Of a DNA stretch of 31,881 bases, positions 9,642 through 30,320 are shown piece after piece. The translations under genes and the position numbers were made by a program. The notes under the pieces were generated by a model, which did no database searches, was not told where the DNA came from, and worked only from the letters and a program-made list of their open reading frames with translations. This DNA comes from a virus. Numbering within the stretch: the first letter of the stretch is position 1; the number at the start of each line of letters is the position of its first letter. The DNA lies in the IMG/VR virus record IMGVR_UViG_3300046750_000091, positions 1 through 31,881 of that record; one strand, 5' to 3'.

Positions 9642-10186
9642 TGAGCTTAGAACAAGAAGAATTTTTAAAAGAACACGGATACTTTGTTGTACATGATGTG
9701 ATGCCAAAGGACGTGTGTGAGAATCTTGCAAAAGAATTTGCGCGTGATGCAGAGTATATTGGGGTTAAAGATGACCTATGTCCGTCTGTTAATGGTTTAT
9801 ATAACCACATGCCTTTTGTCAGAACTTTAGTTGGTTTAGTGCCGCACATAAGTCATTTAGTGGGTGAAGCTGTTTTGCCAACATATGCTTATGCCCGTCA
9901 CTACAATCATCAGGGGGCTGATCTAAAAAGGCACAAAGACCGTCCAGCCTGCGAGTTAAGCATGACTCTTAACATACGAAAAACGCACGATTGGCCTATT
10001 TGGTTAACGGATCGTAAGGGTAACGATGTGTCGATTGACTTGCCCGTAGGCTCTGGGTTATTATACCACGGAATAGAACTCGAACATTGGCGTCACCCGT
10101 ATACAGGATCAGATCATATTAATGTGTTTTTGCATTGGGTGAGGGCTTTTGGGGCGTACTCGAACTACGTTTTTGACAGGGGCTGA
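9641..10186 (+). CDS. 2-oxoglutarate/Fe(II)-dependent oxygenase-like protein 3
   Basis: A 181-residue protein counted from ATG 9641. I rejected the longer frame from 9614, which would overlap oxygenase 2. The start DxxGYFVVHDVMPKDVC-like N-terminus resembles phytanoyl-CoA/2OG oxygenases. The metal site is His98-Lys-Asp100 (LKRHKDRPACELS). The distal His is probably His149 in LEHWRHPYTG, and HINVFLHWV is the closing strand. The usual Arg is replaced by, or shifted toward, Arg151/His165, so activity needs testing. It is followed by a 57-base gap, the largest in this half of the window, so it ends the accessory island. Confidence 0.7.
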   Translation: MSLEQEEFLKEHGYFVVHDVMPKDVCENLAKEFARDAEYIGVKDDLCPSVNGLYNHMPFVRTLVGLVPHISHLVGEAVLPTYAYARHYNHQGADLKRHKDRPACELSMTLNIRKTHDWPIWLTDRKGNDVSIDLPVGSGLLYHGIELEHWRHPYTGSDHINVFLHWVRAFGAYSNYVFDRG

Positions 10187-12103: not shown

Positions 12104-12357
12104 TGTCTACGACTAACATTACAATCCCGTATTTTGCAAAAGCTCCGGACTTATACAGCCCAGAGTACACTGCACAGGTAACGCGCCAGTTCTCTTTGTT
12201 GGCGCAACAGCTAGTAAACCCCGGTCCTATACGGGCTGAGACCCTTAATTTATCAGGTCTTGGGGTATACGCAAACAACACTGCAGCAAAAGCTGGCGGT
12301 TTGGTCGAAGATGATGTATATAAGACATCAACAGGTGAATTGAGGATAGTGGTATGA
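12103..12357 (+). CDS. Small virion-region protein, unknown
   Basis: An 84-residue protein. Its ATG overlaps the previous TAA (TAATG) and its TGA overlaps the next ATG (ATGA), giving strong context for a real gene. The sequence has a helical centre (VTRQFSLLAQQLVNP) and a C-terminal beta hairpin (GLVEDDVYKTSTGELRIVV) like the short strands that end phage collar or fibre-linking proteins. No catalytic or metal-binding motif is seen. It may be a minor tail component. Confidence 0.65.
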   Translation: MSTTNITIPYFAKAPDLYSPEYTAQVTRQFSLLAQQLVNPGPIRAETLNLSGLGVYANNTAAKAGGLVEDDVYKTSTGELRIVV

Positions 12358-12506
12358 GTGATTCAGAAAGAACTCCCGAAGAAATTGAAGAGTTAAATAG
12401 ACGTAGAGAAATGAGCGGGACTCCTGCAAAAGGCGATAAACCTGCGTCAAAAGACGTTACCGCCTCTGTTACGGGACCTGATCCAATGGGTGGGGGTGTC
12501 TGGTAA
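12354..12506 (+). CDS. 50-residue acidic/basic mini-protein
   Basis: A 50-residue open frame from ATG 12354 (overlapping the previous TGA as ATGA) to TAA 12504-12506 (overlapping the next ATG as TAATG). Both junctions follow the exact coupling pattern of the surrounding genes, so it is very probably translated although short. The N-terminal half is charged (SDSERTPEEIEELNRRRE). The C-terminus ends in a turn-rich GPDPMGGGVW. It may be disordered with a helix at residues 8-20. Function is unknown; it could be a scaffold or linker for the glycine-zipper protein coded next. Confidence 0.6.
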   Translation: MSDSERTPEEIEELNRRREMSGTPAKGDKPASKDVTASVTGPDPMGGGVW

Positions 12507-13282
12507 TGGGTCTCTTATCTTCGTTAGGTAGTCTTGTAGGAATGGCAGTTGGTGGTCCTGTAGGGGCCGCAGTTGGTGGTGGGATTGGAACCTTGGGAGA
12601 GGGCGGATCTTTATCAGATGCTCTTAGCTCTGGTATAGGTAACGCATTAACGGCAGGAACTTTAGGAAAAGCTGGATTAATTGGTAACGCTCTTGGCGGC
12701 GGTGCAAGCGCAGCGACTCGAGGCGCAGGCATAGCTTCTTTGTTTGGCGGTTCTATGGGCGGCATGATGGGCGGTGCTCAACCAATGAGTGCAATAGCAA
12801 GTGGTGCTATGGGTAACGCAGGCGGATACGGTCCTATGCAAGGCGGCATAGCTCAAAACTTAATGCAGGGCATTGGAATAACAGACGCTAACGGGCAGAC
12901 TAATCCTCTTATGGGCGGTATTATGCGTGAGATGTTGTATCAACAACGCAGACCACGGTTCGAGAATCTGATGTCCGACACAGAAATGGCACAGTACAAT
13001 ACAGGGGAAAGACGCCCCGACTACAGAGGGACAGCGGTCCCAGGTACTCCTCGGGTTCAGACTCGAGCCATGGGTGGAATGATCGAGGGCCCCGGATCAG
13101 GGACCAGTGACTCTATTCCCGCAACTATTTATCAGAACGGTGGCCCTGTCCAAGAGGCTCGTCTATCTGATGGTGAGTTCGTAATGACTGCAGATGCTGT
13201 TAAAGGCGCAGGCGGTGGAAATAGAGGCGCAGGCGCAGCTAAGATGTACGAACTTATGAACCAATTTGAACGGAGGGCTTAA
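12506..13282 (+). CDS. Glycine-zipper internal virion/ejection-type protein
   Basis: A 258-residue protein. Residues 1-100 are a glycine zipper rich in small residues (LVGMAVGGPVGAAVGGGIGTL; SSGIGNALTAGTLGKAG), suited to insert into or span a membrane. A Met/Gly-rich stretch follows (GGSMGGMMGG). Near the C-terminus, ARLSDGEFVMTADAVKGAGG resembles the SDGEFVM/PGEFVL motif of phage tail-length or internal proteins. In podoviruses such proteins leave the capsid and help DNA cross the envelope. The neighbours are virion proteins on both sides. A 98-codon antisense frame here only mirrors the Gly/Ala codons. Confidence 0.65.
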   Translation: MGLLSSLGSLVGMAVGGPVGAAVGGGIGTLGEGGSLSDALSSGIGNALTAGTLGKAGLIGNALGGGASAATRGAGIASLFGGSMGGMMGGAQPMSAIASGAMGNAGGYGPMQGGIAQNLMQGIGITDANGQTNPLMGGIMREMLYQQRRPRFENLMSDTEMAQYNTGERRPDYRGTAVPGTPRVQTRAMGGMIEGPGSGTSDSIPATIYQNGGPVQEARLSDGEFVMTADAVKGAGGGNRGAGAAKMYELMNQFERRA

Positions 13283-26021: not shown

Positions 26022-26061
26022 AAAAAAAGGCTCACGCTAACGGCCCGTGTCAGCGTGAGCC
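26022..26061 (-). terminator. Strong intrinsic terminator between SSB-like gene and primase gene
   Basis: GGCTCACGCT (26029-26038) is an exact inverted repeat of AGCGTGAGCC (26052-26061), giving a 10-bp GC-rich stem with a 13-base loop, followed on the minus strand by seven T (26028-26022). This is a perfect rho-independent terminator for transcripts of the SSB-like gene. It probably attenuates expression of the primase and the following replication genes. Confidence 0.9.
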
Positions 26062-28972: not shown

Positions 28973-29196
28973 TAGAAACCATGGTGGACTTTAAGAAAGG
29001 ACTTCGGACTCTCGATACAGGGACCAAGGTCCTTGCCGAACAGACGGGGCTCGAGGATGATGTCGCCCGTGCATTACTCAGAGGCATGAACAAATCATAC
29101 TCAACAGTCACGCAGATCAGAGGCTACTCAAAAGAAAAACCCTATCAGATCGAAGGCAAGAATAAAAAAAGGCTCCTTAAAAAAGGAGCCTGTTAG
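28942..29196 (+). CDS. Small basic partner of the SNF2 helicase, unknown
   Basis: An 84-residue protein whose ATG 28942 lies 31 bases before the helicase stop, in another frame. Helical: EAHEEIIETMVDFKKGLRTL, then VARALLRGMNKSYSTV. The C-terminus is very basic (KGKNKKRLLKKGAC-like), fit for DNA binding. Its last codons contain the minus-strand terminator hairpin, so the coding sequence and terminator share bases. It may be an accessory of the helicase. The function was not recognised. Confidence 0.6.
   Translation: MAKFEAHEEIIETMVDFKKGLRTLDTGTKVLAEQTGLEDDVARALLRGMNKSYSTVTQIRGYSKEKPYQIEGKNKKRLLKKGAC
29164..29190 (-). terminator. Strong minus-strand terminator inside the end of a plus-strand gene
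   Basis: GGCTCCTT (29171-29178) and AAGGAGCC (29183-29190) form an exact 8-bp inverted repeat with a 4-base loop. Seven T follow on the minus strand (29170-29164). It should stop leftward transcription of the small-gene cluster before it runs into the convergent helicase pair. On the plus strand the following TGTTAGTTTGG is a poorer T tract, so plus termination is probably weaker. Confidence 0.88.
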
Positions 29197-29248
29197 TTTG
29201 GTAGCATAGGACTACCGAGCAGTGTATGGAATACCCTAACAATACATG

Positions 29249-29428
29249 TTAAGTGTCATGCTGTCGAGAATGAAAGTCATGTGCCTGACGTATCAACACT
29301 GACAGTTGTCGAGCCATGGACCTTTGTTCTTTCTCTGCGATCAAACGCAGCAAGTCATGATCCTCTTTTATTAATCCAACGTTCTGAAACTTTTGTTTCT
29401 CAGACTCTTTCATCTTTTTTCTAGCCAT
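29249..29428 (-). CDS. Small ribbon-helix-helix-like DNA-binding protein
   Basis: A 59-residue basic protein from ATG 29428. The longer frame from 29470 has no ribosome site, while GGGGG lies a few bases upstream of 29428. The sequence MARKKMKESEKQKFQNVGL leads to DHDLLRLIAEKEQRSMARQLSVLIR, a strand plus two helices like Arc/CopG repressors. It is the last gene of the leftward small-gene cluster. An inverted repeat lies immediately upstream and may be its operator. Role: probably a repressor of its own or of nearby early genes, inferred from fold and site. Confidence 0.6.
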   Translation of the reverse strand: MARKKMKESEKQKFQNVGLIKEDHDLLRLIAEKEQRSMARQLSVLIRQAHDFHSRQHDT

Positions 29429-29429
29429 G

Positions 29430-29484
29430 TCAGCCCCCAGTTGTTTTGTAAATGTTGATTGTACATACACAAGTTGGGGGCTGA
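29430..29484 (-). promoter_or_regulatory. Long inverted repeat upstream of the RHH-like gene, possible operator
   Basis: TCAGCCCCCAGTTGT (29430-29444) and ACAAGTTGGGGGCTGA (29469-29484) are inverted copies with one base insertion/mismatch, about 24 bases apart. They flank a -10-like TACAAT on the minus strand within the spacer. Dyad arms of this length around a start region fit a repressor operator, possibly used by the ribbon-helix-helix protein coded just downstream. As a cruciform or RNA hairpin it could also mask the ribosome site. Confidence 0.5.
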
Positions 29485-29500
29485 ACGCAAGTAGTTAGAT

Positions 29501-30025
29501 TTAGACAGGCAAGACTATGCGATAAGACTCTGTGCTTTCCAACGGTTGGTCTTCGTCGGAAAGAAACTCGTCTATTCGAGACATAGAAATGTTATCTTCT
29601 TCCAAGTGTTCAGCTAATTCGTCTGCAGTCCACCACTCAGGGCTCTCAACCATGGTGGCTCGGATCACTGCGAAGTCTTGAACCTTTGGATCTACTAAGA
29701 CGGGCTTGGATTCTTCAGCTTGCTCAACCGTGGTGGCTCGAACACAGCGCCAAGGTATGTGGGCTCTCTTGTCCGCGTAGTTTGGTACGCATCTTGCATC
29801 AACCAAATCCCCTCGATCAAAGTTCAGAAGGTTTACGATACGAGCATTGAAGAATACTGCTTCCCCCTCATCGGTTATACCAAACGCGCTCCTAGATTCA
29901 GTTAAATTTTCAATCATCACATACATAGATTCTGTATTGAAGTTATGCTCTGAGGTGTGAGTGAAATTTTCCAACTGCTTACGCGCTTGGTGGTTGTTCA
30001 TGTATGCTGTCCTTATCTTATGCAT
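29501..30025 (-). CDS. Early-region protein with possible OB-like domain
   Basis: A 174-residue protein. The middle (EAVFFNARIVNLLNFDRGDLV, then DARCVPNYADKRAHIPWRCVR) looks like an OB-fold-type beta barrel known in some marine-phage proteins of unknown role. The acidic C-terminal third repeats a VRATxVE-like segment (VRATTVEQAEE, then VIRATMVESPEW), followed by an acidic helix. ATG 30025 overlaps the previous TAA (ATGCATAA). ATG 30001 also has an AAGGACA site and cannot be excluded. Acidic, cytoplasmic and of unknown function; ssDNA or RNA mimicry is conceivable. Confidence 0.6.
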   Translation of the reverse strand: MHKIRTAYMNNHQARKQLENFTHTSEHNFNTESMYVMIENLTESRSAFGITDEGEAVFFNARIVNLLNFDRGDLVDARCVPNYADKRAHIPWRCVRATTVEQAEESKPVLVDPKVQDFAVIRATMVESPEWWTADELAEHLEEDNISMSRIDEFLSDEDQPLESTESYRIVLPV

Positions 30026-30320
30026 TTGAAATGTCCTTTAACGGAAGTTTGTCTCGTTTAATAATATTGCAAACCATTGTCTCCGATACACACAACAGGT
30101 CTGCAATCGTGGTCACGTCTAGTTTTTTATGCAAAAGAATATTTATCCGGCGAGATCTTTCGCTAATCTTTTGCTCCGGAGTAGAAGGAGAACGTCTTTT
30201 AATTCCCGTTCTTAGTGATTCCTGGTTGTGCATGTGAGCAATTCTAGGCTTCTTAATAACGTCCATTTGATTCTGTTTGATCCATGCCCTTCGAAACCTG
30301 TGCTCTTGTTCCGGTGTCAT
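30018..30320 (-). CDS. Small helix-turn-helix protein
   Basis: A 100-residue basic protein. The N-terminus has many Lys/Arg (FRRAWIKQNQMDVIKKPR), then a Ser/Pro linker, and LDVTTIADLLCVSETMVCNI near the C-terminus is a helix-turn-helix of the small homeodomain-like type. GGGAGG 5 bases before ATG 30320 is a strong ribosome site. The start overlaps the previous TGA (ATGA). Probably a DNA-binding regulator of the small-gene cluster or of later genes; no ligand domain. Confidence 0.6.
   Translation of the reverse strand: MTPEQEHRFRRAWIKQNQMDVIKKPRIAHMHNQESLRTGIKRRSPSTPEQKISERSRRINILLHKKLDVTTIADLLCVSETMVCNIIKRDKLPLKDISNA

Follow-up and report, generated by a model that had tools for sequence, protein, structure and literature searches.

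Here, we describe a small gene in the 31,881-nt window, which is the whole stretch analyzed and comes from the IMG/VR virus record IMGVR_UViG_3300046750_000091, together with the DNA directly upstream of it. The gene lies on the minus strand (29249–29428, stop codon included) and encodes a 59-aa ribbon-helix-helix (RHH)-like protein, P0001, recognized by profile matches. Its start at ATG 29428 is supported because most relatives begin with M-A/P-R-K-K. It closes a leftward unit; between it and the convergent rightward genes, the terminator scan listed a terminator-like hairpin with a T tail on the minus strand (29170–29191). The neighboring upstream gene (29501–30025, minus strand) encodes 174 aa with no Pfam or PHROG match, and its stop codon stands 10 nt before the −35 element described below. 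No terminator-like site was listed on the minus strand between these two genes, and the gene order permits read-through, of which the upstream gene is a possible source. Similarly, a same-strand upstream ORF (ORFs called mechanically) ends just before the promoter, or inside it (L037, L038, L040, and L148), in all 25 cluster representatives. The upstream gene also contains an 18-nt direct repeat (94%; 29645–29662 and 29723–29740, 78 nt apart) that codes for two similar peptide stretches. Across the family, the C-terminal parts encoded by the gene before the RHH gene differ by lineage (L060, L070, L073, L104, and L145 vs. L010, L021, and L058) beside a constant promoter cassette, as if recombination breaks fell at the RHH promoter.

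Relatives of P0001 were found in 161 stretches of viral contigs at E ≤ 1e-3, of which 80 were kept, and the protein alignment comprised 39 distinct proteins, all from these 80 loci. Pfam RHH_5 was matched by 38 of the 39 at E ≤ 0.1 (best 1.1e-5), in agreement with the assignment made in an earlier note on this DNA. The window protein alone matched RHH_5 at E 0.022, under the curated cut-off, and the PHROG Arc-like family at E 0.015. Two hits to solved structures (E 0.044 and 0.27) were set aside, and an AlphaFold2 single-chain model gave one helix over residues 8–58 (pLDDT 75.6, pTM 0.37); the single chain did not confirm the RHH fold. In the alignment, M1, N16, L19, D23, H24, L27, E34, Q35, R36, S37, M38, R40, Q41, L42, S43, V44, and I46 were invariant, and F14 and G18 were nearly so. 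By the strand-helix-helix register of Arc and PutA, we take F14, N16, and G18 to face the DNA; these predicted contacts are invariant or at least 90% conserved, and DNA preference should therefore be alike across the family.

Among named phages, neither the DNA of the window nor, at E ≤ 1, the protein P0001 had a match, and 60 pattern matches in bacterial and archaeal genomes included no relative. The best named matches of the record's DNA polymerase were 023Pt_psg01, DSL-LC04, and the Pelagibacter phages HTVC023P and HTVC027P (47–53% identity). No paper that combines RHH, Pelagibacter, and phage turned up in a literature search, which says little. The suggestion that the locus takes part, with an AlpA-like gene, in phage decision-making or lysogeny gained no backing from 10 records (fragments or of uncertain completeness), none of which had a tyrosine integrase or resolvase match. 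In DSL-LC04 (L174), a gene labelled RNA polymerase sigma-G factor (12306–12563) occupies the position of the AlpA-like gene, in the interval between primase and the UvrD-like helicase; homology is by position only, and the label looks doubtful.

Upstream sequences were drawn from the 80 loci, 15 further contigs, and 3 others, leaving out L082 (match not from the first residue) and L144 (same contig as L071); 97 loci and the window remained, with 57 distinct sequences over the last 70 nt. TTG-N20-TA was present upstream of the RHH start in all 57, and a spacer of 17 was best or tied-best in every one with no spacing bonus (49 alone, 8 tied). The family form is (A)C-TTGCAA-N17-TATAAG, with ACAA 7 nt further on. 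The −35 element of the window is TTGCGT (29485–29490, minus strand; family TTGCAA, with TTG as its first three bases in 57/57) and the −10 element, 17 nt past it, is TATGTA (29462–29467, minus strand; family TATAAG), a weak version. C, A, and A at positions 8–10 after the −10 element were conserved at 97, 100, and 93% (weighted) and at a fixed distance, and AC preceded the −35 element in most sequences. T4-type late promoters consist of TATAAATA with no −35 element; the module here is not of that type, the family element being TTGCAA-N17-TATAAG. We infer that this sigma-70-like module is used as the promoter of the RHH gene, with transcription starting at about 29455, placed 7 nt past the −10 element.

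The module was found once per record in each of the four records scanned with a weight matrix: the site scored 28.7 against 7.8 for the next best place in the window, 28.8 against 6.3 in G001, 47.4 against 8.5 in G002, and 46.3 against 5.8 in G006. The matrix was trained on the same sites, which inflates their own scores, but the gap to other places is still informative. At the last position of the −10 element, G or A stands in place of T, with G in 93% (weighted) of the 57 promoter sequences; sigma-70 promoters prefer T there, and the G may be a requirement of the RNA polymerase or of a bound regulator. The distance from the −10 element to ATG (29429–29461 in the window) falls mostly into two classes about 10–11 nt apart among the window and the 57 upstream sequences, and sequences of the long class carry two copies of the ACAA box at an 11-nt period, as in ACAAATGGACTACAAA of L021.

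A perfect 10-bp dyad, TCAGCCCCCA/TGGGGGCTGA, adjoins ATG 29428, with arms at 29475–29484 and 29430–29439. The full arms, ACAAGTTGGGGGCTGA (29469–29484) and TCAGCCCCCAGTTGT (29430–29444), are spaced 24 bases apart directly before the ATG, exactly as had been described, and their inner TTGT/ACAA is set off from the 10-bp core by a small mismatch. On the minus strand the order is TTGCGT-TCAGCCCCCA-ACTTGTG-TATGTA-...-ACAAC-TGGGGGCTGA-C-ATG. The 5′ arm is anti-Shine-Dalgarno and fills positions 1–10 of the spacer between the −35 and −10 elements, and the 3′ arm carries the Shine-Dalgarno GGGGG (29434–29438) and ends 1 nt before the ATG, in a region that is G-rich across the family at −10 to −6. The loop (29440–29474) holds the −10 element and the putative transcription start. 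As the earlier note had it, the dyad overlaps the gene's own presumed promoter; the TACAAT that it pointed to is present in the spacer, but is not conserved, the same place reading TAAAAC in L006 and TGAGGT in L008, the two nearest variants.

Besides the dyad, the 31.9-kb window has just one other perfect inverted repeat of at least 10 bp with a loop of at most 60. Both have at least 7 G/C; in 100 dinucleotide shuffles, repeats of this length averaged 1.51, and those with at least 7 G/C averaged 0.11. The other one belongs to a strong terminator-like hairpin on the minus strand (26029–26061; 13 pairs, T7 tail) inside the replication gene cluster. The C5 and G5 cores had been thought unlike their surroundings; such runs are not unusual, since GGGGG occurs at 13 and CCCCC at 14 places in the window. 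The RNA of 29500–29400 (minus strand) folded at −28.3 kcal/mol (z −3.69), and 0 of 200 shuffles were as low. A repeat search of the window at default settings did not list the dyad. The dyad was also considered as an intrinsic terminator, but no T tract follows it on either strand and it is absent from the terminator scan, and as a known RNA family, for which cmscan of 29200–30100 gave one match (E 2.5), far under the cut-off. Within the whole record, TCAGCCCCCA occurs only at the two dyad places, and a half-site search of the window gave a single one-mismatch match, AGGGGGCTGA at 9912; no second site appeared in the four records scanned for the module. Together with the single module per record, this gives no support to the switch over the early cluster that had been envisaged.

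We then compared the arms across the family. They were retained in all seven closest loci (L003–L009), the conservation in relatives that the operator idea had called for. L021, L033, and L060 retain GCCCCCA and have lost the outer part of the arm, and a group of 11 sequences carries TTGTCCTCCA/TGGAGGACAA or changed or decayed forms of it (decayed in L010 and L016). Exact-dyad searches of viral contigs with the two arm types gave 8 and 17 places, all on contigs with the RHH gene. Among the 25 cluster representatives, the duplex energy of each promoter spacer with its own ribosome-binding site averaged −13.2, compared with −11.25 (sd 0.52) for permuted partners, and 0 of 5000 permutations were as low; at least 8 consecutive Watson-Crick pairs were found in 9 of the 25 representatives, whereas the frequency of such stems was 4.8% among swapped pairs and 0.5% among shuffles. 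Counted by any member, such a stem was present in 10 of the 25 clusters (16 of the 57 distinct sequences) and lacking in 15. The clusters chosen for weak pairing had no excess (mean −7.2 own vs. −8.15 swapped). Compensatory changes between and within the two arm types were seen at pairs 3 (CG/TA), 6 (GC/TA), 7 (AT/GC), 8 (CG/TA), and 10 (CG/GC) in the 17-sequence alignment. Such covariation cannot by itself tell an operator from an RNA stem. Among one-sided stem changes in this alignment, read by eye, G-U pairs did not clearly outnumber broken ones, so this comparison does not distinguish RNA from DNA either. Because the arms are retained or compensated in some lineages, yet 15 of the 25 clusters lack a stem of at least 8 pairs, the hairpin looks lineage-bound, selected where present and dispensable elsewhere.

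Predicted exposure of the Shine-Dalgarno depended on which transcript was folded. In the window, the predicted unpaired fraction of its core was 0.00 with 150 nt of upstream sequence and 0.61 in the own-promoter transcript; the corresponding predicted means were 0.00 vs. 0.40 in group A (6 sequences) and 0.10 vs. 0.69 in group B (11 sequences). L008 has the same stem as the window, yet its Shine-Dalgarno was poorly exposed even in the own-promoter transcript (predicted 0.13). When only the 5′ part of the window sequence was shuffled, exposure of the whole ribosome-binding region was unremarkable (p = 0.10). In 10 sequences with other candidate arms, predicted exposure did not differ between transcripts (0.30 vs. 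0.31), and hairpins there are doubtful. The swap test on weaker alternative hairpins (L104, L073, L145, L136, and others) singled out L145 most, and the change in exposure across these hairpins was not consistent.

Based on these results, we consider it fairly probable that the hairpin forms only in read-through mRNA and hides the Shine-Dalgarno, making the dyad an RNA device around a nested promoter and not an operator. The RHH gene would have its own sigma-70-like promoter at the end of the leftward unit, and since the 5′ arm lies inside the promoter spacer, only mRNA running in from the upstream gene could carry it and form the stem. In such mRNA the 5′ arm would pair with the Shine-Dalgarno region, up to 2 nt before the ATG, and block translation, whereas mRNA from the own promoter would start in the loop, lack the 5′ arm, and leave the Shine-Dalgarno freer. 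The dose of the RHH protein would then be set by its own promoter alone, which would be sensible if that promoter were autoregulated or timed. This reading is favored because the 3′ arm is the Shine-Dalgarno itself, because the long transcript would include the 5′ arm and the short one would not, because the arms change while the predicted DNA-reading residues do not, and because loop length differs between the two groups, 35–36 nt against 23 nt. Not every lineage has the device: 15 of the 25 lack a stem of at least 8 pairs, though the upstream gene is co-directional there too.

The earlier note had suggested that the dyad may be the operator of the RHH protein. On this view, RHH dimers would occupy the two arms, perhaps through a DNA loop, and shut down the promoter of their own gene. 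RHH proteins often autoregulate, the dyad overlaps promoter and start, it is found only before the RHH gene, and all of the closest loci keep it. Nevertheless, we regard an operator at the arms as unlikely: TCAGCCCCCA is replaced by TTGTCCTCCA, or the arms vanish, where the predicted contacts F14, N16, and G18 are invariant or nearly so, and the half-site is not kept wherever the DNA-reading residues are (10 of 25 clusters with at least 8 pairs, and at least two arm sequences). A family-wide operator at the dyad is argued against because the stem occurs in so few lineages while the predicted contacts barely vary; moreover, the difference in loop length is not a whole number of helical turns, and one arm is fixed by the needs of the Shine-Dalgarno. 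Should the promoter be under RHH control, its operator would more plausibly be the family-wide ACTTGC/TATAAG/ACAA module than the arms. That the operator is this other, family-wide part of the promoter (AC before TTGC, TATAAG, and ACAA 7–10 nt past the −10 element), with the dyad a separate RNA device or incidental, is a reading that we hold possible without leaning toward it, and it is compatible with the hairpin. The conserved C, A, and A at a fixed distance, the frequent AC before the −35 element, and the single occurrence of the module per record fit it, but the ACAA box could simply be a transcription start or a ribosome enhancer, no clear symmetry was seen in it, and the pairing of the arms is left unexplained.

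Two further readings leave the RHH protein aside. The stem may serve the upstream message, through 3′-end protection or processing, with no role in RHH translation. It is stable and starts 16 nt past the upstream stop codon, but it has no T tract and goes unlisted by the terminator scan, which places a terminator-like hairpin after the RHH gene instead, and the 3′ arm of the aligned dyad-bearing sequences falls on the Shine-Dalgarno when it could have lain free of it; we find this quite improbable. Least credible of all is coincidence, with a C-rich spacer complementary to a G-rich Shine-Dalgarno by chance. The long stem is indeed missing in most clusters, but own pairs beat every one of the swapped sets, stems of at least 8 pairs far exceed their frequency among swaps, and compensatory changes fall outside the G-rich core (pairs 6–8 and 10). 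Returning to the read-through hairpin, we offer, as a speculation more likely wrong than right, that nested promoter and hairpin together act as an insulator: the RHH protein would repress its own promoter via the family-wide module, the hairpin would shut off read-through synthesis, and feedback would stay tight, the arms having been re-invented across lineages with the anti-Shine-Dalgarno strand always in the spacer. In this scenario, the arm sequences of the different lineages would be unrelated (TCAGCCCCCA, TTGTCCTCCA, and perhaps TCGTGTCC, ATGCCCT, and CCATGTGG).

Silencing of read-through is known from mobile elements: in the IS10 and IS50 transposase genes, a message entering from outside is folded and not translated. 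The purpose would be alike here, namely silencing the read-through message, whereas the setting differs, mobile-element ends there and a phage regulator here. In phage T4, the genes e, soc, 49, and I-TevI are named with this hairpin architecture (PMC3014915). As described for gene e, upstream transcripts hide the ribosome-binding site, two late-promoter transcripts lack the 5′ strand, and the measured effect of the hairpin is 100-fold; T4 relatives retain the promoter in the DNA coding the 5′ strand, and some phages have gene e without apparent structure (PMC3014915). The present locus resembles gene e in that the long transcript hides the Shine-Dalgarno or AUG and the near-promoter transcript lacks the 5′ strand (here predicted), and in the patchy spread of the structure. 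It differs in that T4 has late promoters, a late lysis gene, and a measured effect, whereas the present locus has a sigma-70-like promoter, a gene for a small RHH regulator, and an effect that is computed. The I-TevI hairpin is described as limited to upstream-promoter transcripts, with a promoter near the gene leaving the ribosome-binding site free, and other homing endonucleases as similar (PMC2988022). The presumed limitation of our hairpin to upstream-promoter transcripts is shared with I-TevI, I-TevII, I-TevIII, segB, and Aeh1 mobE, but those hairpins go with late promoters and endonuclease genes, and no regulator gene is among the cases that the source names (PMC2988022).

A Shine-Dalgarno hairpin specific to read-through is already established for T4, and the present case is probably the same arrangement on a regulator gene of uncultivated phages. 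The locus also cautions against reading every dyad that overlaps a promoter as an operator, and similar devices could be sought purely in sequence, by the pairing of a promoter spacer with the ribosome-binding site behind it. If our reading is right, the trick of T4 late genes would extend to other, uncultivated phages, where the hairpin encloses a housekeeping-like promoter and guards a small regulator.
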